Positions 7,172 through 37,784 of a stretch of 64,000 nt of DNA are shown in pieces (position 1 is the stretch's first letter; each line of letters opens with the position of its first letter). The position numbers were made by a program, and so were the translations under genes. The stretch spans positions 382,001 through 446,000 of the forward strand of contig NZ_OY761823.1 of the NCBI RefSeq assembly GCF_963664965.1, read 5' to 3'. The notes beneath the pieces are model-generated. The model saw nothing but the letters and a program-made list of their open reading frames with translations. It did no database searches and was not told the origin of the DNA. Source of the DNA: an uncultured Pseudodesulfovibrio sp. (GTDB lineage Bacteria; Desulfobacterota; Desulfovibrionia; Desulfovibrionales; Desulfovibrionaceae).

Positions 7172-8824
7172 TCAGCCGTGTACTGCTCCAACCAACAGGC
7201 CGGACACGTCCCGTGCTGCCAGCGCCCTTTCAAAGCTTTTCCCCTGCCCCTGCTCCCGTGCGATCCCATGGGCGAGAGCAAGCTCCTCCAGCCCTGATTC
7301 AAGCCGATAGGATTTGAGGTTCGCCAACGCGATTTCAAAGGCGAGCCGCCAGTCTTTCCGTTCATGCAGGGTCAGGATGGACAGGAAACCGACCCGGACC
7401 TGTTCCATACCGAGGACCGGTCGAAGCATCGTGTCCAGAAGCCGCAGCGTGGGCAGGTGCTGCGGTTCATCCACAAGCACGGTCATGAGGCATTCCGAAG
7501 CCGCCGCAGGAAGGTGCCGGGACGGATTGAACGGGAATCCTCCCCGGATGATACGCTCCCTGCGCGAAAGGTCCTTTGCCCAGAGAGTCAAAAGCTGCAC
7601 CGAATCTTCCGGCGCACGCGGCTGCCGAGCCCCGGTGGATTGCAGATGGCGGTACCAGAAGGTCTTGGCCGCATCCCAGTTCCCGGCACGCAGGGTCGCC
7701 ATGGACCCGGCAAGGTTGCACTCCGGCGAATCAACAAACAACTGCCCGCCCAGAATGGACCGGATATTCTCCTCAAGGCCCGCCGTCATCCCGGCAGCGG
7801 CCTGAACCCGCATGGCCGCTTCGGCCACTTCCGCATCCAGCGGCAATTCAGCCAGTTCCGACAGCAGTTTCCCGGCTGGCATGTCGTGCATTCCGGCTTC
7901 CCACAGGCCGCAAATTGCAAGCGTTTGCCACTTGATGCTGTCCGGTCCGGTTGCCCGATGCCGCACGGCATCGCGCGCGTATTCCAACAAACGCTGCGCC
8001 CTGTGTTCCGGCAGGTGCTCCCGCTGGACACGCTCATGTGCAGCGCGCCCCATGGCCTGCGTCAGCCGGTCTTCATGCATGTATTTCCGGAGCTTGCTGT
8101 CCATCTCGACAATGTCGGCATAGGTATCGAACTCACGCCCGGGCCTGAACAGTTCCTCCTGCTCGTCGCCCAGCGCCTGCCCCAGCACGAGACATCCGCA
8201 GGATGCGGCCTCGAACAATCGAAAATTGACTTCACCGAGAATGGATTCATTGGGAATGATCCGCGACGAGCGGTAGAGTTCCATCATGCCACCAAAATCA
8301 AGACCATCCCGAATGGCGAGATTGAAATTACCCCATTTCCTTTCGAGGTACTCCAGCATCCACTTGCGGGCAGGCCGCTGTTCGGTGACGCGTCCCACGA
8401 AAGCGAGATCGAACTCCCGCTTTCCGTCAGCGATGTCGATTTTCCTACCATACCACGGCAGCCAGCGCACATCCTTCGCCCCCTGCCGCTGGGTATCGGG
8501 AATGACCTTGCGCTGGGTAACGCAGGTCATGTCGAACAGCCGCGCATACGCGCTCTGCCAGTGTGCGTTGAGATGCGGGTCCACCCCCCAGTAAATGAGC
8601 GGGCAGTCCATTTCGTCGAGGCCGGTCACCACGGTCCGACGATTCAAGACTTCGCACTGAACCACCAGATCGGGCGTGAAACCATGCTCCGCCAACGCCT
8701 CGGGAAGGGAAAAGAACGGTGCCCGACGGGTCAGCAGATTCAAAACAGTGCATCCGGCACGCTCGAATCCGGCCCCCACGGGGAACGGCACGTCAATCAG
8801 GCAGATATTTCGTATTTCCGACAT
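7172..8824 (-). CDS. CgeB-like glycosyltransferase with C-terminal helical region
   Basis: Predicted GT4-type glycosyltransferase related to the CgeB group. The first 330 residues resemble two Rossmann-like domains. They contain PLIYWGVDPHLN near 85, the linker FDLAFVGRVTEQRPARKWMLE near 140, and the C-terminal donor-binding part FRLFEAASCGCLVLGQALGD near 205-225 (the usual EAxAxG-like site). The last 220 residues have no recognised motif and look like helical repeats. The start MSEIRNICLID at 8824 is chosen because the fold begins there; 26 further upstream residues are open but not family-like. The acceptor is unknown; flagellin or surface glycan modification would be a guess. Confidence 0.72.
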   Translation of the reverse strand: MSEIRNICLIDVPFPVGAGFERAGCTVLNLLTRRAPFFSLPEALAEHGFTPDLVVQCEVLNRRTVVTGLDEMDCPLIYWGVDPHLNAHWQSAYARLFDMTCVTQRKVIPDTQRQGAKDVRWLPWYGRKIDIADGKREFDLAFVGRVTEQRPARKWMLEYLERKWGNFNLAIRDGLDFGGMMELYRSSRIIPNESILGEVNFRLFEAASCGCLVLGQALGDEQEELFRPGREFDTYADIVEMDSKLRKYMHEDRLTQAMGRAAHERVQREHLPEHRAQRLLEYARDAVRHRATGPDSIKWQTLAICGLWEAGMHDMPAGKLLSELAELPLDAEVAEAAMRVQAAAGMTAGLEENIRSILGGQLFVDSPECNLAGSMATLRAGNWDAAKTFWYRHLQSTGARQPRAPEDSVQLLTLWAKDLSRRERIIRGGFPFNPSRHLPAAASECLMTVLVDEPQHLPTLRLLDTMLRPVLGMEQVRVGFLSILTLHERKDWRLAFEIALANLKSYRLESGLEELALAHGIAREQGQGKSFERALAARDVSGLLVGAVHG

Positions 8825-8993
8825 GCCACGTCTATACACTGTTTCCACTCGTTTATCCACGCCGTAACATCTCAAAATGTATGAGCTCCTTCTCGTATTC
8901 AACAGCCTTTGCAGACTTCACAGCCCTTTTACTTAAGGGTCAACACATTGTTTTATAACAATATTTTTTTTCGGGAAATTCCTGAAACAACCC

Positions 8994-9021
8994 TAAGCAT
9001 TCCCGACAGGGCGGCCGATAA
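8994..9021 (+). promoter_or_regulatory. Candidate sigma-28 (FliA) promoter
   Basis: GCCGATAA at 9014-9021 equals the sigma-28 -10 consensus, and TAAGCATT at 8994-9001 resembles the -35 (TAAAGTTT). The gap is 12 bases against the usual 11. It lies about 175 bases upstream of the FlgM-like gene, in a non-coding stretch (8825-9194) where nothing else is evident. Confidence 0.45.
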
Positions 9022-9194
9022 GAGAATCAACCGCGAAGGATGCATCAAACGGGATCGCATGTTCGCAACGCATCCATGATTGCGGATACCTGTCCGAACG
9101 CAATGGACAGAGGCTGCCGCAACGGGATGAGAGGGAGACTTCGGGAAGGATTGGGAGATCCTTCCCCTGACTTCAATAACCCGGGGAGGGGTTA

Positions 9195-26057: not shown

Positions 26058-26291
26058 TCATGATTTAATGAGCTTTATTCCAAAATATATTAACGGTAAA
26101 GCCGTGAGATATACTCCAAAAGAAAAACCCAAAAATCCCGGACTTGTCTGCCAATCATAAACAAGAGTGGCTCCTGCCAATAATAACAAAAGGGTACCCT
26201 TGATTTTATTATTGAAAACAAATTTGCTACCTGAGCAAATTCCACTTGTTTTTTTTGACCCCGATTTCTTTTCGTTCATCGAGTAAGACAT
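26058..26291 (-). CDS. Small membrane protein, candidate Rhs immunity protein
   Basis: A protein of about 77 residues, starting MSYSMNEKKSGSKKTSGICS. Two hydrophobic helices (LLLLLAGATLVYDW and FGVYLTALPLIYFGIKLI) follow. The start overlaps the 3' end of rhs by 65 bases. AGAGGAAG lies about nine bases before the ATG at 26291, and starts at 26279 or 26315 are also possible. Tight coupling to rhs and a terminator just downstream support an immunity role. The Rhs tip it would neutralise is itself hydrophobic and Gly-rich. No family is recognised. Confidence 0.6.
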   Translation of the reverse strand: MSYSMNEKKSGSKKTSGICSGSKFVFNNKIKGTLLLLLAGATLVYDWQTSPGFLGFSFGVYLTALPLIYFGIKLIKS

Positions 26292-27405
26292 CACTACCAT
26301 CTTCCTCTTCGGCATTTAAAATTTCATACGCAGTACCTTTCAAAAGTCCAGTCGGGAAACCGATTGCAGCACCGCCTATGGCCCCAGGCACAGCCCCTAT
26401 TCCTAATATAGGAATACCTGTCGCTGCACCGGTTGCAGCACCAACCCCCATCCCCCAAAGACCTTTTTCAAGAATACGCCCCCCGACCCCTTTTTTCCCT
26501 TTAAGCCCCAACGGGTCCACCCCGTTGACCGGATCATCCAGACAATACCCATACCAGTCCGGATCACCGCCCGCATCGCCAATCGGATCGGGCGCGGTCC
26601 AGCGACTGGTGTACGTGTCGTAGTCTCGAAACCCGAACCTGACGAAGCCCAGATCCCGGTCGTGCAGACCGCCTGCGAAGCCGAGGGGGATTTTGAAGCC
26701 GGGATTGCTGTCCTCGATGATGCCGCCGAACGGGTCGTACTGGATAGCCTTTATCACGTTGCCGCTTGTGTCGGCAACAACGCGGAGGCTGCCGACCTGA
26801 TCGTGGAAGAGGTAAGCCACCCCGCCGTCGTCACGGCGCATGGCGTAGGGCGTGCGTTCATCATCTTCGTAGGCGAATTCGTAAGAATTTCGACCGTCCC
26901 AGTATCCGGCAAGGCGGATGAAATCGAGCCATTCGTACGCCTCGACCAATTCGCCGTTGCAATATTTAGCGATACGGCGGCCTTCGTCGTTGTGACGGAA
27001 GGTGAAGGTGCGGCCCGCGTCCTTCTGGTCGGATTTCAGCAGGCGGTAATCCGGTGAATACTCGTACAGCGTGTATTTGCCCTTGTGATTCCACATGCTG
27101 CGGAAGCCGTTGTCGTCGTGCATGTAGCTGTTTTTCCCGGCCCGCGAGAGGCGATTGTCCATGTCGTATTCATAGCGGCGGAGGTCGCCTTCCACGGATT
27201 TGGGGAAGCTGTCGCACGTGCGGCGTCCGGCACGGTCATACCAGCAATCGCAGACGGGCCAGCCGTTGCGTTCGCATTTGGCGAGGCGGCCCGCCTTGTC
27301 GTAGGCGTAGGTCCATGTGACGGGTTCGCCCGCCACGGTTTCGGTTTTTTCGATAATGCGACCCTGTGGGTCGTGGTTCAACTCATAACTGTACGGCACT
27401 GCCAT
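26227..27405 (-). CDS. Short Rhs/YD-repeat protein with variable toxin-like tip
   Basis: A 392-residue protein made of YD repeats (YDKAGRLAKCERNG, YDRAGRRTCDSF, YEYDMDNRLSRAGKN) and the Rhs core. The core has FHDQVGSLRVVADTSGNVIK and RFGFRDYDTYTSRWTAPDPI, then the boundary PVNGVDPLGL. The tip after the core, about 80 residues, is hydrophobic and Gly-rich (GVGAATGAATGIPILGIGAV), so a membrane-acting toxin is plausible. Typical Rhs proteins exceed 1000 residues; here the N-terminal delivery part is absent. The ATG at 27405 follows GGAGA at seven bases. The duplicated control element lies 54 bases upstream. Confidence 0.8.
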   Translation of the reverse strand: MAVPYSYELNHDPQGRIIEKTETVAGEPVTWTYAYDKAGRLAKCERNGWPVCDCWYDRAGRRTCDSFPKSVEGDLRRYEYDMDNRLSRAGKNSYMHDDNGFRSMWNHKGKYTLYEYSPDYRLLKSDQKDAGRTFTFRHNDEGRRIAKYCNGELVEAYEWLDFIRLAGYWDGRNSYEFAYEDDERTPYAMRRDDGGVAYLFHDQVGSLRVVADTSGNVIKAIQYDPFGGIIEDSNPGFKIPLGFAGGLHDRDLGFVRFGFRDYDTYTSRWTAPDPIGDAGGDPDWYGYCLDDPVNGVDPLGLKGKKGVGGRILEKGLWGMGVGAATGAATGIPILGIGAVPGAIGGAAIGFPTGLLKGTAYEILNAEEEDGSDVLLDERKEIGVKKNKWNLLR

Positions 27406-27458
27406 AATTTTCTCCATGTTTTCGTCTTTGCGGGTCATTCCGAAAGATCGCGGAGAGT

Positions 27459-27554
27459 ATACCCCCGGTTTTCGGAGGAGGATGAAAACGGGCGATTTGG
27501 ACCCCAAAACGGGCGAAAAAGGCATAACTTGGATACTTGACAGGGTTTTGGAAA
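27459..27554 (-). promoter_or_regulatory. Duplicated control element, copy 2 (rhs)
   Basis: Matches 24462-24556 over about 95 bases with a few changes, including ATACCCCCGGTTTTC at one end and the paired AAAACGGGCGA repeats. Position and orientation relative to the first downstream gene are the same as in copy 1. This suggests shared transcriptional control of rhs and the phage-like operon. Confidence 0.6.
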
Positions 27555-27599
27555 GGCAGGAAAGGCAAAAGGCAGAAATCCAGTCGCTTTCGCTCCTTT

Positions 27600-28320
27600 C
27601 ATGCCCTCCCGGCGGGGTTCTTTCTTTTTCCAAAGCAGAAAAGAAAGAACGAAAGAAACTGCTTTTGTTCTGAGCTTCACCGCCTGGTATCTTCGGAGTC
27701 AAGAATCTGATCAAACCGGGCCGCTCCCGAATCCAGTCGCCGGGGACGGCTCCGGGATTTGATAAAGCCGCGGCCACGTTTTGTCAGCTTCTAGGCTTCG
27801 AAGCTAAGGGCTATTGCCGGTCTTCGTGTGGAAGAAACTTGAAAGGCAAGCAGGGACACAATAGGTGAATTTTCGTTGCCGCACTTGCCTTTCGCTATCT
27901 TAACAACCGAAGTACCCCGACTAGCCAATTAAACCTCACAAGCCTTAGAAGCTGACTGAGAGGGGAAGGCGGCTTTAGTGGCGGAACCCGTATAAATCGA
28001 CATAATTCCGTACCCAACGGAATGGCAGGGCCAACGCTTTTCATGGCGTGGAGCCGCCCCGATCAGATCAGATTCTCGGCGGTGAGGACTTGGCGGGTAA
28101 ATCAAGCGAAAGCCGAGCTTCTTTGGTACTTTCTTGGGGCGGCTCAGCCACAAATCCGCAGGACAGCGGATTTGGACGTTGCGGTCCTCCGCAACGCCCC
28201 GCAGGGGTGAGGCCCAGGACGGGCCGAATCAAAAAGTACCGCCGTCCGCGTAGGACATGGAGGGAGCGTAAGCGACTGGATTTTGGCCTTTCGTCTTTCT
28301 CTGTCTCAGAAAAAATAAAC
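27600..28320. repeat. Long intergenic repeat, copy A
   Basis: No gene is credible in this stretch. It shares long blocks with 32750-33167 and 37221-37700. These include GGGGTTCTTTCTTTTTCCAA (27615 on), CCAATTAAACCTCACAAGCC, CCGTACCCAACGGAATGGCA, and the GGTAC...GTACC hairpin arms. The hairpin here is split by an inserted 81-bp element (28150-28230). A sub-block around 27690-27780 is present in inverted orientation in copy C. The rest of the 27406-28378 gap holds only the control element. Confidence 0.75.
28150..28230. repeat. 81-bp small mobile repeat, copy 2, inside a hairpin of copy A
   Basis: Same length as, and similar to, 24580-24660. It interrupts the repeat hairpin between GGCTCAGCCA and AAAAAGTACC, which are contiguous in copies B and C. 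It contains two short palindromes and no coding frame. Confidence 0.7.
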
Positions 28321-32745: not shown

Positions 32746-32749
32746 GAGA

Positions 32750-33167
32750 AAGGCAAGCAGGGAAGCAATCGGTGGATTTTCGGGACCGCACTTGTCTTTC
32801 GCTCCCTTAACAACCGAAGTGCCCCGGCTAGCCAATTAAACCTCACAAGCCATAGAAGCTGACTGATCGGGGAAGGCGGCTTTGACGGCGGAACACGTAT
32901 GAATCGACATAATCCCGTACCCAACGGAATGGCAGGCACTGCGCTTTTCATGGAGTGGAGCCGCCCCGATCAGATCAGATTCTCGGCGGTGAGGACTTGG
33001 CGGGTAAATCAATGTAAAGCCGAGCTTTTTGGTACTTTTTGGGGCGGCCCAGCCAAAAAGTACCGCCGTCCGCGTAGGACATGTAAGGAGCGTCAGCGAC
33101 TGGCTTTTTGCCTTTCTTCCTTTGTCTTTTCCTCTGAAAAAAACAAAAGACAAAGAGCCCTCCCGGC
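32750..33167. repeat. Long intergenic repeat, copy B (left part)
   Basis: Shares with copies A and C the blocks CCAATTAAACCTCACAAGCC, CCGTACCCAACGGAATGGCA, the hairpin GGTACTTTTTGG (33031-33042) with CCAAAAAGTACC (33053-33064), and GCCGTCCGCGTAGGACATG. It is interrupted at 33167 by the transposon and resumes at 37221. No credible gene is present in 32746-33253. Confidence 0.75.
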
Positions 33168-33192
33168 GCAAGGCGTTTTCCATAAATGTTGA
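33168..33192 (+). repeat. Left terminal inverted repeat of the transposon
   Basis: 25 bp, exact inverse of 37196-37220. It is followed inside by CGAAAACGCC, where the two ends diverge. Confidence 0.9.
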
Positions 33193-33213
33193 CGAAAACG
33201 CCAAAAAAGAGCT

Positions 33214-33249
33214 ATAACCCCCTGTAAGCTAACGCTAATAGGGGGTTAT
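33214..33249 (+). promoter_or_regulatory. Hairpin covering the transposase ribosome binding site
   Basis: ATAACCCCCT (33214-33223) pairs with AGGGGGTTAT (33240-33249) over ten bp. The right arm contains AGGGGG, the only Shine-Dalgarno-like sequence, nine bases before the ATG at 33254. Read-in transcripts from outside would fold and hide the site, as in known IS elements. It could also act as a weak terminator. Confidence 0.65.
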
Positions 33250-33253
33250 TCTT

Positions 33254-35026
33254 ATGGGTAAAATATTTTCCCAGGTTGCCAAGCCACGTATCCCTGCCCC
33301 TAGTGACGGCATTCAAGTAAACTTCTGCAAGAATCCGAAATGTAAGAACTATGGTCGCCCGGCGAAGCCGAAGGTGTCCCGTGGAAAAGTCGCCGCTGGC
33401 AAACAGAGGCTGACAGACAGCTACAATGTGGCCGGTGGGGGGCGTGATATGCCCTTATTGCACTGCAAAGAGTGCGATGAGCGTCCACCTATGAAAAGCA
33501 ATACGGGTGTCGCCCAAGAACTTGCACGGTTCAAATCCCTTCTCGCAGAAAATGACAGTGGTTGTCAAAACCCCGAATGTGAAAACCACGGCGTGTCATT
33601 GCGGGCAAGGAGGCGATATCAAAAGTTCGGCAAAACCCCTTCGGGCGACCCAAGGTACAGGTGCAAGGCCTGTGGTAAGACCTTTTCCGTCGGTCCGGCT
33701 TCCAGGCGGCATAAGAAGTCAGAGAAAAACAGGCTGATTTTCATGCTGGCTGTCAACAAGACGCCAATCCGGCGAATGTGTGAAATAGCGGACCTGCAAG
33801 CCAAATACGTCTATAAAAAACTGGACTTCCTCCATACCCAGTGCGTTCGCTTCCTAGCCGCCCGAGAGCGCAGGCTATTGACCAGCGTTCATCCTAAACG
33901 ATTGCATTTGAGTGTTGACCGCCAGGACCACTTCGCCAACTGGCTGGACCGCAATATCAAGAAGAATATCGTGTTTCAGGCCATTGGCACCGCCGACAAC
34001 ATCACTGGATATGTTTTTGCCAGCCACCTGAACTATGATCCCGCTTTGACCCATGACGTTGTGGAGAAGGAAGCCCGTACTTGTGGCGACCTGCATCTAC
34101 CCGTGGCTTTCAGGCAACACGCCAGGCTTTGGCTTGGACAGGATTATCTGAAGGCAATGTACCGGACCGCCAAGCGGTACAATAAGGACATTGTGGGTGA
34201 CACCCTGCTGGCGAAGGTCATGGAGACGTACAAGCGGGCTGGCAACCGGCCCGACGTGGAAGACCTTGAAGCCGTGACTGCTTCCATGCAACTGCCCAAG
34301 AATGGGGTTCAGGTCAGGGCGGACTACACCATGTACGGGCATTTTTTCTATCTGGCCCACCTATTCCGCAAAGTGGGCAGGATACGGTTTTACTTGGACC
34401 AGGAGTCAGGCATCCGTGCGGCGTGTCTTTCTGCCTTCATGAAGCAGGTCAAGAACAGGACGTGTGACGCTTTCTACGTGTCGATCAACAAGGACATGAC
34501 CAATGATGAGCGGGAGCAATGCGTCAAAGCCAGTCGCAAACGTTTCAAGACGTTCAAGGAGCGTTATCCTGGCCTTACCGACAACGAAATGATCAAACTG
34601 ATGGTCAAACGGAACATGAAGACCATGAAGCAGATCGGCCAGTACAAGGACTTGTGGTTGGAACACCCTTATCCTAACAAAAGCGAACCAGAAAAGATGG
34701 TCAGCTACCAGACCGACCTCGGGGACTATGACGAGGACTTGGTTGCCGACATGTACATGCGGGCATCCATGGCGGGCATTGATCGCTTCTTTATGCAAGC
34801 CAGGCGCAGGAGTTCCTATCTGGAACGGGGTATCCACACTTCCAGCCGAAGCGGTGGTGTGTGGCATGGTTATGCCCCGTATGACCCACGGATGATCGGG
34901 AAAAGTCTGGATATGCTTCGCTTCTATTACAACTATGTGCATGTCGGAAAAAACAAGGAAACCCCAGCTATGAAACTAGGGCTGGCGGATGGTCCTGTCA
35001 AAGTTGAAGATTTGTTGTATGAATGA
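33254..35026 (+). CDS. Zinc-ribbon DDE transposase (IS1/IS1595-like N terminus)
   Basis: A 590-residue protein. The first Cys cluster is C25, C30, C71, C74 (HCKECDERP). The second is C104, C109, C137, C140 (RYRCKACGKTFSVG), a zinc ribbon like that of IS1 InsA and IS1595 transposases. A helix-turn-helix follows at about 155-195. The RNase H-like core has candidate Asp residues at D222 (HLSVDRQ) and D382 (RFYLDQESG). The C-terminal FYYNYVHVGKNKETPAMKLG resembles the end of many IS transposases. It is long for IS1 or IS1595, so it may belong to a separate group. Genes downstream are cargo. Confidence 0.75.
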   Translation: MGKIFSQVAKPRIPAPSDGIQVNFCKNPKCKNYGRPAKPKVSRGKVAAGKQRLTDSYNVAGGGRDMPLLHCKECDERPPMKSNTGVAQELARFKSLLAENDSGCQNPECENHGVSLRARRRYQKFGKTPSGDPRYRCKACGKTFSVGPASRRHKKSEKNRLIFMLAVNKTPIRRMCEIADLQAKYVYKKLDFLHTQCVRFLAARERRLLTSVHPKRLHLSVDRQDHFANWLDRNIKKNIVFQAIGTADNITGYVFASHLNYDPALTHDVVEKEARTCGDLHLPVAFRQHARLWLGQDYLKAMYRTAKRYNKDIVGDTLLAKVMETYKRAGNRPDVEDLEAVTASMQLPKNGVQVRADYTMYGHFFYLAHLFRKVGRIRFYLDQESGIRAACLSAFMKQVKNRTCDAFYVSINKDMTNDEREQCVKASRKRFKTFKERYPGLTDNEMIKLMVKRNMKTMKQIGQYKDLWLEHPYPNKSEPEKMVSYQTDLGDYDEDLVADMYMRASMAGIDRFFMQARRRSSYLERGIHTSSRSGGVWHGYAPYDPRMIGKSLDMLRFYYNYVHVGKNKETPAMKLGLADGPVKVEDLLYE

Positions 35027-35157
35027 TTTTCCTATGAGGATTGATTGACTCCTGCACACAGAATATCGTATTTTCATGAGTGATCCAGAGGGGTTGAAAA
35101 GCATGTTGACTTCTTGTGGATGACGTGAGCATACGTGTCTAGAAGTCTTGTAGAGAA

Positions 35158-36153
35158 ATGGAACCAAAGGGAATGATGAATAATCAGGATAATAGATTTT
35201 CTTCGGTAGAGTTGTGTGCGGGGGCTGGTGGGCAAGCCCTTGGTCTTGAACAGGCAGGATTTTCCCACGAGGCCTTGATCGAAATAGAAAAGCCAGCTTG
35301 TAACACCCTGTTGCACAACAGGCCTGAATGGAATGTCTTGAATATGGATTTACGGGACTTCTCGGGGACACCCTATAAAGGCGTGGACCTGGTTGCTGGT
35401 GGCGTTCCTTGTCCCCCTTTTTCAAAGGCAGGGAAACAACTTGGTGCAAAGGATGAAAGGGACTTGTTCCCGGAAGCTGTCAGGATTGCAGACGAGGTTC
35501 GTCCGAAGGCTATCCTTCTTGAAAATGTTAGGGGTTTTTTGGATGACGTTTTTGCCGACTATCGCAATAAGTTGAAGAGCAAGTTGAAAAAACTTGGATA
35601 CGCTGTCGACTGGAAGCTGTTGAACGCTTCTGATTTCGGTGTGTCACAGCTTCGCCCCCGTGTGGCCATTGTCGCAGTGCAGAAACAGTATGCCGATACA
35701 TTTGCTTGGCCGGAACCTGGGCTGATTAAGCCTAAAACGGTAGGCGAATTGCTGTATGACCTTATGGCAGAAGATGGTTGGCGTGGGGCCAAAACGTGGA
35801 TGGAACGGGCGGATGACATCGCCCCCACGCTTGTGGGCGGTTCCAAGAAGCATGGAGGCCCTGACTTGGGGCCGACACGGGCAAGGAAGGCCTGGGCGTC
35901 CCTTGGGGTAGATGGGAGCAACGTCGTTTATGATCCGCCCGAAAGAGATTTTGTGGGAATGCCTAGATTGACCGTCAAGATGACCGCCCGTGTTCAAGGT
36001 TTCCCTGACGAGTGGCACATCACAGGCAAGAAGACCCCGGCATATCGTCAGATCGGCAATGCCTTTCCGCCGCCGGTGGCCCGTGCAGTCGCTGAAAAAG
36101 TGTTTGAGTGCCTCAGTGTTTCCAACATCTTCAAGTTGAGTAAGTCCGCATGA
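35158..36153 (+). CDS. C5-cytosine DNA methyltransferase of the RM system
   Basis: Methylates cytosine in the recognition site to protect DNA. Motif I is ELCAGAGGQALGLEQAGF near residue 19. Motif IV is GGVPCPPFSKAG with catalytic C85. Motif VI is LENVRGF near 121. Motif VIII is SQLRPRVAIVA, and motif X is YRQIGNAFPPPVA near the end. The variable target-recognition region lies at about 200-275. Its stop overlaps the endonuclease start by four bases. ATG at 35176, with AAAGGGA upstream, is an alternative start. The pair is inside the transposon. Confidence 0.92.
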   Translation: MEPKGMMNNQDNRFSSVELCAGAGGQALGLEQAGFSHEALIEIEKPACNTLLHNRPEWNVLNMDLRDFSGTPYKGVDLVAGGVPCPPFSKAGKQLGAKDERDLFPEAVRIADEVRPKAILLENVRGFLDDVFADYRNKLKSKLKKLGYAVDWKLLNASDFGVSQLRPRVAIVAVQKQYADTFAWPEPGLIKPKTVGELLYDLMAEDGWRGAKTWMERADDIAPTLVGGSKKHGGPDLGPTRARKAWASLGVDGSNVVYDPPERDFVGMPRLTVKMTARVQGFPDEWHITGKKTPAYRQIGNAFPPPVARAVAEKVFECLSVSNIFKLSKSA

Positions 36154-37166
36154 GTAGTGTTATCAGCCGCATTGTCGCCGAGTTTAAAAACATGTCCAAA
36201 AATGGCGGGGAAGTATCTTGCCCCTTCTATTTTTTGAAAAAGACAGACAAAGGCTTTCAAGCGTCAAATGCAGATGGGCAGTGCATTATTGCCCGCAGGT
36301 TGTCGGAAATACTTAACGTTAAAAAGTGGCAACAGCTTGTGGATGAGGAGAATCCCTATTTGCTAAACAGCGATGGGAAACCCGCAAAGAAGCCATTTGT
36401 AGGACAAACGTGCGGCAAGGCATTTGAGTATCTGGTCAAACACTTTATTGAAGAGTCTTTCGTCAAGCATTTAAACTTCTTGCGGCCGGGATCATATACC
36501 GTTCTCTTGGATAAGGACCTAAAGGACTTCGAACAATACAAACATTTGAGAGATTTTGATGAAGTTTTGGCCTTCATCCCACCAGAAGCAAAATCCTTGC
36601 GGGATAGACTGGAGGCCGCTTTTTCGTCGTACGCAGTTTCGCCAGATATTCTTGTTTTGGCTGAAAAGAACGACCGGGATCAAGTAAACGAAAAATGGGA
36701 AGATCAGTCTGGCATAAAAAGAGGTTATCCACTTATTTCTGACACCGACGCTCCCCATACGAATCTGTTGAAAAAAGCCGAAGACGAAAATCTTCCTAAT
36801 GTTCACGCCATTGTGAGCATCAAGTGGACCATGCGTAGCGACAGAGCACAAAATGCACGTACAGAAGGTGTTTTTTCAGCACAAGAACGAAGAGGTAAGG
36901 CCCCACATTTTGTTGTAGTTACAGGGGAACCACGACCTTCTAGGATACGTTCCCTCGCACTTGGGTCTGACATTGATTGTGTTTACCACGCTTTCTTGCC
37001 AGAGTTGATGCAAGCCATTGAGACCGTGAACCCAGGCAAGAAAGGCAAGTTTGTTGAATCAGAAAGAAGATGGCTTGAAACAATGCTAGAAATGAATCGA
37101 CTTCGTGACATTTCGACCTTCCTTTTGACCTTGTGTTGTAGGTCGCCTGCCAAGAACGCCAAATAG
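36150..37166 (+). CDS. NgoMIV/Cfr10I-like type II restriction endonuclease
   Basis: A 338-residue enzyme with the rearranged active site known in NgoMIV and Cfr10I: E93 (AFEYLVKHF), PD at 165-166 (SPDILVL), S223-x-K225 (VSIKW), then E239 after 13 residues. R229, D231 and R232 (MRSDRAQN) sit at the same spacing from the lysine as the NgoMIV residues that read CCGG. LGSDIDCVYHAFLPEL near the end is also family-like. It therefore probably cuts a site with a CCGG core. It is translationally coupled to the methyltransferase. Confidence 0.85.
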   Translation: MSSVISRIVAEFKNMSKNGGEVSCPFYFLKKTDKGFQASNADGQCIIARRLSEILNVKKWQQLVDEENPYLLNSDGKPAKKPFVGQTCGKAFEYLVKHFIEESFVKHLNFLRPGSYTVLLDKDLKDFEQYKHLRDFDEVLAFIPPEAKSLRDRLEAAFSSYAVSPDILVLAEKNDRDQVNEKWEDQSGIKRGYPLISDTDAPHTNLLKKAEDENLPNVHAIVSIKWTMRSDRAQNARTEGVFSAQERRGKAPHFVVVTGEPRPSRIRSLALGSDIDCVYHAFLPELMQAIETVNPGKKGKFVESERRWLETMLEMNRLRDISTFLLTLCCRSPAKNAK

Positions 37167-37196
37167 CCCCGGAGTAAAATCCGGGGCTATATTTTT
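37163..37196 (+). terminator. Intrinsic terminator just inside the right transposon end
   Basis: The stem ATAGCCCCGGA / TCCGGGGCTAT with a six-base loop is followed by ATTTTTC. It overlaps the endonuclease stop codon and would stop transcripts before they leave the element. Confidence 0.88.
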
Positions 37197-37220
37197 CAAC
37201 ATTTATGGAAAACGCCTTGC
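37196..37220 (-). repeat. Right terminal inverted repeat of the transposon
   Basis: 25 bp, exact inverse of 33168-33192. It is followed outside by TCCCGGC, the second copy of the target duplication. Confidence 0.9.
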
Positions 37221-37700
37221 TCCCGGCGGGGTTCTTTCTTTTTCCAAAGCAGAAAAGAAAGAACGAAAGAAACTGCTTTTGTTCGTAACATCACCGCCTA
37301 ATATCATCGAAGCTAAGGGCTAGTGTAGGTCTTCGTGCAGAAGAAATGTAAAAGGCAAGCAAGGAAACAAAAGTCGATTTTTCGTTGCCGCACTTGCCTT
37401 CAAACAACTTGGCAGCCGAAGGCGAGGACGAGCCAATCAGACCTCACCGGTACTAGAAACTGACCAAACAATGGCTGCGGCTTTTTCGAATCACGGAGCC
37501 GCTTCGGCGACTTGATTCGGGAGCAGCTTGTTTGGATCAGATTCTTGGACAGGTGAGAGTCCGGCGGGTAAATCAAGGTAAAGCCGAGCTTTTTGGTACT
37601 TTTTGGGGCGGCCCAGCCAAAAAGTACCGCCGTCCGCGCAGGACACGGAAGGAGCGAAAGCGACTGGCTCCCTGCCTTTCTATCTTTCTTTCCCTTCAAA
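37221..37700. repeat. Long intergenic repeat, copy B right part and copy C
   Basis: 37221-37345 continues copy B (GGGGTTCTTTCTTTTTCCAA and following). Copy C follows with GGCAAGCAAGG..., the GGTACTTTTTGG (37595-37606) / CCAAAAAGTACC (37617-37628) hairpin and GCCGTCCGCGCAGGACACG. 37440-37550 holds a block that is inverted relative to copy A. No credible gene lies in 37167-37784. Confidence 0.75.
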
Positions 37701-37784
37701 AAAAGTGCGAATATGAAGCCTTACTTTCATATTCGCACACACTCGCGAAGCGCGCCAAAAAGTCTTAAACCGCCGGAGGCATTC

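Follow-up and report, generated by a model that had tools for sequence, protein, structure and literature searches.

Restriction–modification (R-M) systems come and go between close strains, and the vehicle that moves them is often unseen; in the excerpts of PMC4176335 that bear on this, about 80% of R-M families occur in fewer than one third of strains. A 64,000-nucleotide stretch of DNA from an uncultured Pseudodesulfovibrio sp. (contig NZ_OY761823.1, positions 382,001 to 446,000; the window hereafter) raises the question of whether such a vehicle can be recognised as one bounded unit, and where it inserts. The window contains a transposase gene and an R-M gene pair between inverted repeats. 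We consider it highly probable that these form a complete, probably autonomous transposon with a type II R-M system, and that it belongs to an insertion sequence (IS)-like family with a preference for transcription terminators and an exchangeable, often defensive cargo. A compact R-M-carrying family with a safe landing site would be a direct and testable route for R-M exchange.

Limits and Ends of the Window Element

The element occupied positions 33169–37219 (4051 bp). Its left terminal inverted repeat (33169–33192, forward strand, CAAGGCGTTTTCCATAAATGTTGA, 24 bp) was answered at the right end by its perfect reverse complement (37196–37219, reverse strand, 24 bp), and the 9-bp target duplication CTCCCGGCG stood directly outside both ends, at 33160–33168 on the left and 37220–37228 on the right. 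These limits were obtained by an exhaustive pair search, in which the left end was sought within 900 bp 5' of the transposase gene and the right end up to 12.5 kb 3' of it. The top pair showed 24/25 end matches and a 9/9 direct repeat, and the runner-up 14/25 and 8/9. The original prediction, made from the letters of this DNA, was of a complete transposon with an NgoMIV-like R-M pair, and the ends, the duplication and the gene content support it. It had also proposed 25-bp ends and a 7-bp duplication, and both lengths were rejected by the search. The ends are indeed perfect at both termini, over 24 bp, and the 25th base (33168/37220) is duplicated target; the flanking duplication is present, and TCCCGGC is the inner part of its 9 bp.

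An uninterrupted target, which had been noted near 27605, was confirmed on the forward strand at 27603–27698. This copy of the target-bearing repeat aligned with the right flank of the element at 91.7% identity and was continuous through GCCCTCCCGGCGGGGTTC, with a single CTCCCGGCG. Long extragenic repeats recur between the window genes (27435–28315, 32749–33168, and 37220–37704) and supplied the target site of the element. The open reading frame (ORF) at 26227–27777 on the reverse strand, named by eye for its RHS-like repeats, has its listed start within the extragenic repeat region.

Genes of the Window Element

The transposase, the methyltransferase, and the nuclease share one orientation, as predicted. 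The transposase gene (33254–35026, forward strand, 590 aa) encodes two C4 zinc ribbons, C25/C30/C71/C74 and C104/C109/C137/C140, and an InsA-like helix-turn-helix (HTH) accompanies the second. In the aligned transposases D222 was conserved in 30/30, D382 in 27/30, and E524 in 27/30, and these three residues are the candidate DDE triad. The IS1-like zinc ribbon noted at the start holds for a small part of the protein, the ribbon and HTH, and not for the protein as a whole: the IS1 model NF033558 covered residues 122–196 only (35.2 bits against a cut-off of 100, E 1.1e-8). The domain NF050000, common to IS1 and IS1595, reached its cut-off, and apart from this shared zinc domain no NCBIfam model scored above cut-off. 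Of 219 sequences in a PDB profile search, the 60 listed comprised zinc-finger proteins plus a single carbamoyltransferase regulatory chain, matched over about residues 99–163 only.

The C5 cytosine DNA methyltransferase (35158–36153, forward strand, 331 aa) matched PF00145 (E 4.6e-69), and all the motifs tested for this class (PC, ENV, and QxRxR) were found, as PCPP, ENV, and QLRPR. The NgoMIV-family restriction endonuclease (36150–37166, forward strand, 338 aa) overlaps it by 4 bases and matched PF09015 (E 1.5e-51) and PDB 1fiu (E 9e-34). Its E93, D166, and K225 aligned with NgoMIV E70, D140, and K187, which we take to be the active-site residues, and RSDRAQNAR was identical. The pair is thus assigned from its sequence to type II, NgoMIV family, with GCCGGC as the predicted site, and its activity and specificity are likewise putative. 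GCCGGC is absent from the element and has 11 occurrences elsewhere in the window, numbers too small for a specificity test. A search with the NgoMIV-type nuclease alone matched 2/199 genomes of the host's own taxonomic family.

Family Sampling, Ends and Natural Empty Sites

Only the transposase or its alignment served as query for relatives, so that cargo was no selection criterion. The sources were genome contigs, plasmids, the host's family and phylum, second copies in matched genomes, and the order and phylum around two matches. Matches (centre genomes included, with differing E limits) were found in 4/199 genomes of the host's own family and 4/395 of its phylum; around the two hits they were found in 7/399 genomes of the order and 15/398 of the phylum, of which 8 were Vibrio-type. 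Later samples gave 2/123 and 4/248, with loci outside the core counts. The plasmid search covered 129 records. The regions of H1, H2, H3, H4, H6, H8, and H9 were examined, H5 repeats H4, H7 was left out, and the remaining Gram-positive plasmid records were represented by the phage copy H62. Spread by viruses was rejected: no relative turned up in a single scan of viral contigs, and a phage collection gave two Staphylococcus phage records, of which the one examined was a dfrG copy.

The core set comprised 25 loci (the window, L002–L007, L013–L017, L025–L027, and L059–L068). Outside the element counts stand L079–L084 (L081 being a strong match) and nine Vibrio-type loci. L010 (a short weak match) and the fragments L028, L041, L055, L056, L058, and L077 were not counted as elements; L046 and L057 are pieces of L078, L008 repeats L002, and L009 repeats L025. 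Both ends could be placed in 22/25 core loci, L002, L005, and L006 being limited by contig edges, and 19 of the 22 were flanked by a perfect direct repeat 9 bp or more in length. The ends, of about 25 bp, had the majority consensus C(A/T)AG(C/G)C...TGTTGA with variants (written for the family as C(A/T)AGCCgtt...TGTTGA), the core transposases were about 570–630 aa long, and the elements ranged from 1.9 to 17.7 kb. The search for similar ends around different cargo, which had been suggested as a check, therefore succeeded across the family.

Natural empty sites were obtained for two elements. Two plasmids lacked the L013 element of a Pseudomonas plasmid, namely pZM1P1 (flanks 98.9% and 99.2%) and pPSEST01 (98.6% and 83.4%), and both empty sites showed a single CCTGTATCG within an intact hairpin. 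For Rhizobium phaseoli, the L016 element was missing at the corresponding place of the TAL182 plasmid (flanks 99.9% and 99.7%, one GCTGATCCCC), and of the R650 plasmid by alignment coordinates only (99.9%, and 97.0% over 201 bases). The inserted unit therefore runs from end to end with a 9–10-bp duplication. A search for an empty site of the Polaromonas element found none. The empty-site check that had been proposed thus gave precise sites in related plasmids for L013 and L016, and none for the window copy.

The window copy might be a dead or immobile remnant that merely looks complete. Its transposase has one copy in its genome, and no empty site was found in a close strain. Against this, the open frame is intact with its candidate triad, the ends and the duplication are perfect, and an 85% relative with nearly the same left end lies at another place in P. 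pelocollis (on a 4618-base contig). We hold a remnant to be unlikely and continue with a complete element, for which catalysis and present mobility are read from the sequence and are probable.

Two groups outside the core had unusual transposase homologues. At L078 (5947–8499) the 850-aa relative bears a fused RNase_T exonuclease domain at its N-terminus and lies in a 3.9-kb element that is likewise terminator-centred; L062 carries a separate RNase_T gene. In the Vibrio-type loci (L018 7209–9470 and L069–L076), a homologue of about 487–515 aa lies directly 3' of a gene that we take to be deoD-like in 9/9 loci. These homologues had no recognisable ends, and the second Asp and the Glu were lost in both that were aligned (L018 and L070). 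The Vibrio-type protein has the appearance of a domesticated transposase that stayed behind at the deoD terminator.

Target Sites

Reconstruction of the empty sites revealed stem-loops preceded by A runs and followed by T runs, the layout of bidirectional intrinsic terminators. Under thresholds for both stem and tail, terminator-like hairpins were found at 16/24 empty sites (14/21 in the core) and at 20/9600 random positions of the same loci (Fisher 2.1e-35); a looser tail threshold gave 17/24 and 44/9600. The L015 site entered this test as 9 bp despite its imperfect repeat. In 14/16 passing sites, no more than 1 nt separated the centre of the duplication from the hairpin axis. Examples are the empty sites of L066 (AAAAAGCCCCGCATAAGCGGGGCTTTTT), L063 (AAAACCCTTTGCATTATCACAATGCAAAGGGTTTTT), L027 (AAAAAAACCCCGTCTCAAAAGAGGCGGGGTTTTTTT), and the window (AAAGAGCCCTCCCGGCGGGGTTCTTTCTTTTT), and the distant members L019 and L078 were also on terminator-like sites. 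In the window the left half of the interrupted hairpin (AAAGAGCCC...) lies at 33151–33168 on the forward strand and the right half, with the T run, at 37229–37245, as folded in the empty site (stem 13.4, tail 7/8, centre offset 0.5 nt). The original prediction had missed both this terminator-like target and the family-wide recurrence of R-M cargo described below.

Survivorship would produce a similar picture if the element inserted widely, perhaps into any palindrome or AT-rich gap, and selection kept the insertions that break no gene. Intergenic insertions do no harm, the sites of L003 and others are short palindromes or lack a hairpin, and L060 sits in a gene. Selection for gaps, however, does not predict a cut within 1 nt of the axis, and with intergenic positions as controls an earlier set still gave 11/19 empty sites against 18/5492. 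We regard survivorship as improbable, and a terminator preference is the reading kept here. The transposase may recognise the hairpin, the palindrome, or the terminating transcription complex; all three are possible modes.

Cargo across the Family

Among the 22 bounded core elements, 10 carried R-M genes, 3 other defence-type genes, 5 other or unrecognised genes (L014, L063, L064, L067, and L068), and 4 no cargo (L007, L013, L016, and L017). The R-M systems were unrelated and of types II, IIB, and IIG. The window carried the C5 and NgoMIV pair, L003 an N6 methylase with a BsuBI/PstI nuclease, and L059 a D12 methylase with a NotI nuclease. The cargo of L004, L060, and L061 was IIG-like, and that of L066 a BcgI-like pair of a IIG-type methylase-nuclease and a specificity subunit. 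L062 and L065 carried an N4/N6 methylase and a common nuclease candidate (44% identical, without a Pfam match), and L027 carried an N4/N6 methylase, a weak REase_II match, and an Xre/RES toxin–antitoxin pair. In the unbounded L006, a D12 methylase and an REase_II match (E 1e-51) adjoined the transposase. The other defence cargo was Mokosh MkoC in L015 (PADLOC E 2e-157), an ApeA-like protein in L025 (by Pfam only), and in L026 an island of two AbiU2-type HEPN proteins, a weak Swt1-like HEPN, a DndB/DpdB-like protein, a GHKL ATPase, and a weak radical-SAM match.

The R-M genes could instead be ordinary defence-island neighbours or chance passengers, uncharacteristic of the family. Nine of the 22 bounded elements had no recognised defence gene, some cargo (in L060 and L067) was metabolic, and Tn7-like and other mobile elements carry R-M genes too, as far as the literature excerpts go. 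The frequency of methylases speaks otherwise. Three methylase families gave 18 + 10 + 11 = 39 matches, fragments and element-borne genes included, in 8 genomes of about 32.4 Mb, or about 1.2 per Mb. At that density the cargo measured in 19 elements, 40.9 kb in all, should hold about 0.05; it held 7, or 6 when the window, which was picked for its R-M genes, is excluded. With phmmer, the R-M cargo queries hit 0/968 flank ORFs, a weak control that is blind to other R-M families; because it uses the cargo itself as queries, the estimate leans on the three-family genome background. With R-M genes between the ends in 10/22, we see little probability in chance passengers and hold to a cargo that is characteristic of the family.

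In the transposase tree, L003, L059, and L065 formed one clade with PstI-, NotI-, and N4-type cargo, L006 (R-M) paired with the cargo-free L007, and L013 (no cargo) paired with L066. The tree was built by a quick method, with long branches and open deep forks. As tree neighbours have unrelated cargo, cargo was gained or exchanged repeatedly.

Bounded elements are also a way to find defence genes, since the content between the ends is the cargo; the L062/L065 nucleases and the L026 island are examples. The common protein of L062 (9137–10153) and L065 (10775–11704) is a candidate for an unassigned type II nuclease family, with a weak REase_II match in L062. A cargo island at L094 5384–13821 (AbiU2-type HEPN, weak Swt1-like HEPN, DndB/DpdB-like, GHKL ATPase, and weak radical-SAM) is a possible unlisted defence system. 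The bounded element L064 carries as cargo (7773–9143) a protein with DUF6035, DUF7830, and CoiA-nuclease matches, which had no counterpart in PADLOC.

Hairpins inside the Element

A hairpin precedes the transposase gene (33214–33249, forward strand, ATAACCCCCT...AGGGGGTTAT). It pairs the likely ribosome-binding site AGGGGG and had z −7.0 against mononucleotide shuffles. Such a predicted masking hairpin 5' of the transposase (z below −2) was present in 20/24 core loci and before 14/153 control ORFs; start codons were guessed for L004, L014, L066, and L068, L005 was left out, and the shuffles keep single-base content only. A terminator-like hairpin with a T run folds just inside the right end (37163–37195, forward strand). 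A stable right-end hairpin (z below −2) occurred in 10/19 elements including the window, a figure without a control. The element region as a whole showed no excess of promoter-like sites (2, with 4.5 expected from shuffles) or of terminator-like sites (9, with 5.4 expected).

Points of Doubt and Proposed Mechanism

Several observations weigh against the reading of a complete, terminator-seeking transposon with defence cargo, among them the single genomic copy and the nine elements without a recognised defence gene already mentioned. For the window element itself no orthologous empty site was obtained, and the paralogous uninterrupted repeat in the window is its only counterpart. InsB of IS1 could not be aligned, so that the candidate triad rests on conservation. 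Among the bounded elements, the direct repeat of L062 was 8/9, that of L015 was imperfect, and L014 had no duplication. The stricter terminator test was failed by 8/24 sites (L003, L004, L016, L017, L020, L060, L062, and L068), of which L062 passed the looser one; L060 was inserted in a recombinase gene, and the Tn7491 copy L020 lay off a strong hairpin. The stem of the window site alone was moderately rare (p 0.0175 among all positions and 0.0066 among intergenic ones), and its 50-nt folding energy was not unusual (p 0.38). The terminator thresholds were fixed after the first sites had been seen, and the controls were random and intergenic positions, with no separate class of tail-less hairpins. 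The ApeA-like protein of L025 and the AbiU2-like proteins of L026 lacked a PADLOC match, and these assignments rest on Pfam.

As a mechanism, we propose that the zinc ribbons and the HTH would bind the element ends, that the protein would pair these ends, and that a DDE-type domain with the candidate residues D222, D382, and E524 would make a 9-bp staggered cut. Intrinsic terminators would be the preferred target, with the cut placed evenly on both sides of the hairpin axis, and the element would therefore land between genes. The hairpin masking the ribosome-binding site may limit the transposase made from outside transcripts, and the one close to the right end would close off the cargo. Such a unit could occupy a broken terminator and yet not be driven by it. 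The R-M pair would protect its host from phages and be costly to lose, in the way of type II systems in general. An exchangeable cargo, often R-M or other defence genes, should favour upkeep of the element by defence or addiction.

The terminator-centred insertion of this scattered family suggests one way for defence systems to spread without breaking host genes. We give an even chance to a broader proposal: that an undescribed superfamily homes to terminators by their structure, its transposition complex recognising either the hairpin or a transcription complex in the act of terminating and making a symmetric 9-bp cut about the axis, and that its Pseudomonadota/Desulfobacterota branch swaps R-M and defence systems and spreads them to recurrent safe sites. 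If true, the terminator-hairpin reading would be an unusual target choice that spares genes and might be useful as an insertion tool; it may deserve more weight if terminator homing is confirmed.

Comparison with Known Systems

The nearest named element is Tn7491, a dfrG transposon found first in Tn6198 of Listeria and also spelled Tn4791; excerpts of PMC10763498 describe 27-bp ends, a 9-bp duplication, and evidence of movement. Its transposase was homologous to that of the window over the full length (hhalign probability 100, E 3e-43, 534 columns; about 23% identity, tblastn coverage 97%), and its copy L020 likewise has a passenger gene after the transposase. The passenger differs in being a resistance gene, and the terminal repeat sequence is not shared (CAAGGCG...TGTTGA against TAAGTAGTTCAG...). 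The copy L020 was off a strong hairpin, whereas L019 of Pontibacillus, with similar ends, was on one.

The original prediction had suggested that the transposase family may be undescribed. Tn7491, as a named full-length relative, limits this claim, while no description was found in the openly licensed literature, among the matches listed. The family could be catalogued already, for example as an ISfinder group near IS1/IS1595 or around Tn7491, with only the present members new. Tn7491 itself points that way, as does RefSeq-type annotation, which labels relatives as "insertion element protein". The NCBIfam result, with only the shared zinc domain above cut-off, and the lack of such a group among those literature matches point the other way, and we consider prior cataloguing possible though rather doubtful.

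The IS1 family typically makes 8–9-bp target duplications, and the 9 bp of the window agree with this. IS1A of E. coli K-12 also shares the InsA zinc ribbon and HTH (hhalign 92%, E 6.7e-7, residues 120–190). The window transposase differs in its 590 aa in one frame, its second zinc ribbon, and its cargo, and InsB gave no alignment to it (probability 0.2). Given this and the 35.2 bits against a cut-off of 100, plain IS1 membership was rejected. The IS1595 family makes 8-bp duplications and has shorter transposases, whereas the present family makes 9-bp duplications; no IS1595 transposase model matched, the likeness being the zinc domain NF050000 only. Siguier 2009 is said to be the defining paper for IS with passenger genes. 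Such IS-like units are termed tIS in the excerpts of PMC7986276 and PMC12888890, and the window element resembles them and IS1595 in being an IS-like unit with passenger genes.

That transposons can carry R-M genes is already known in kind from Tn7-like elements and IS-flanked units, as far as the excerpts go. The PluTI element and an R-M transposon of Rhizobium leguminosarum are reportedly other mobile R-M units. PMC3031569, in the parts available, links R-M genes with transposable elements and describes the IS-linked PaeR7I. In these mobile units, as excerpted, the R-M genes are flanked by IS copies, whereas those of the window lie inside one element with its own transposase. Tn7-like transposons have abundant defence cargo with R-M as the commonest class, according to excerpts of PMC8649781. 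The window element differs from them by a single transposase gene with no further transposition gene, and its family by a target that is a class of hairpins, compared with one att site.

Insertion at a transcription signal is known for TnGBS, ISLre2, and ISKra4, which the excerpts of PMC3942029 place at sigma-A promoters. These elements target promoters and not terminators, a word absent from that text. Among the matches listed from the openly licensed literature, nothing concerned the core family, IS1-like elements with R-M cargo, or terminator-targeting transposons. As far as these searches show, what is new is the hairpin-centred targeting of terminators, together with a compact, IS-like family whose most common recognised cargo is R-M.

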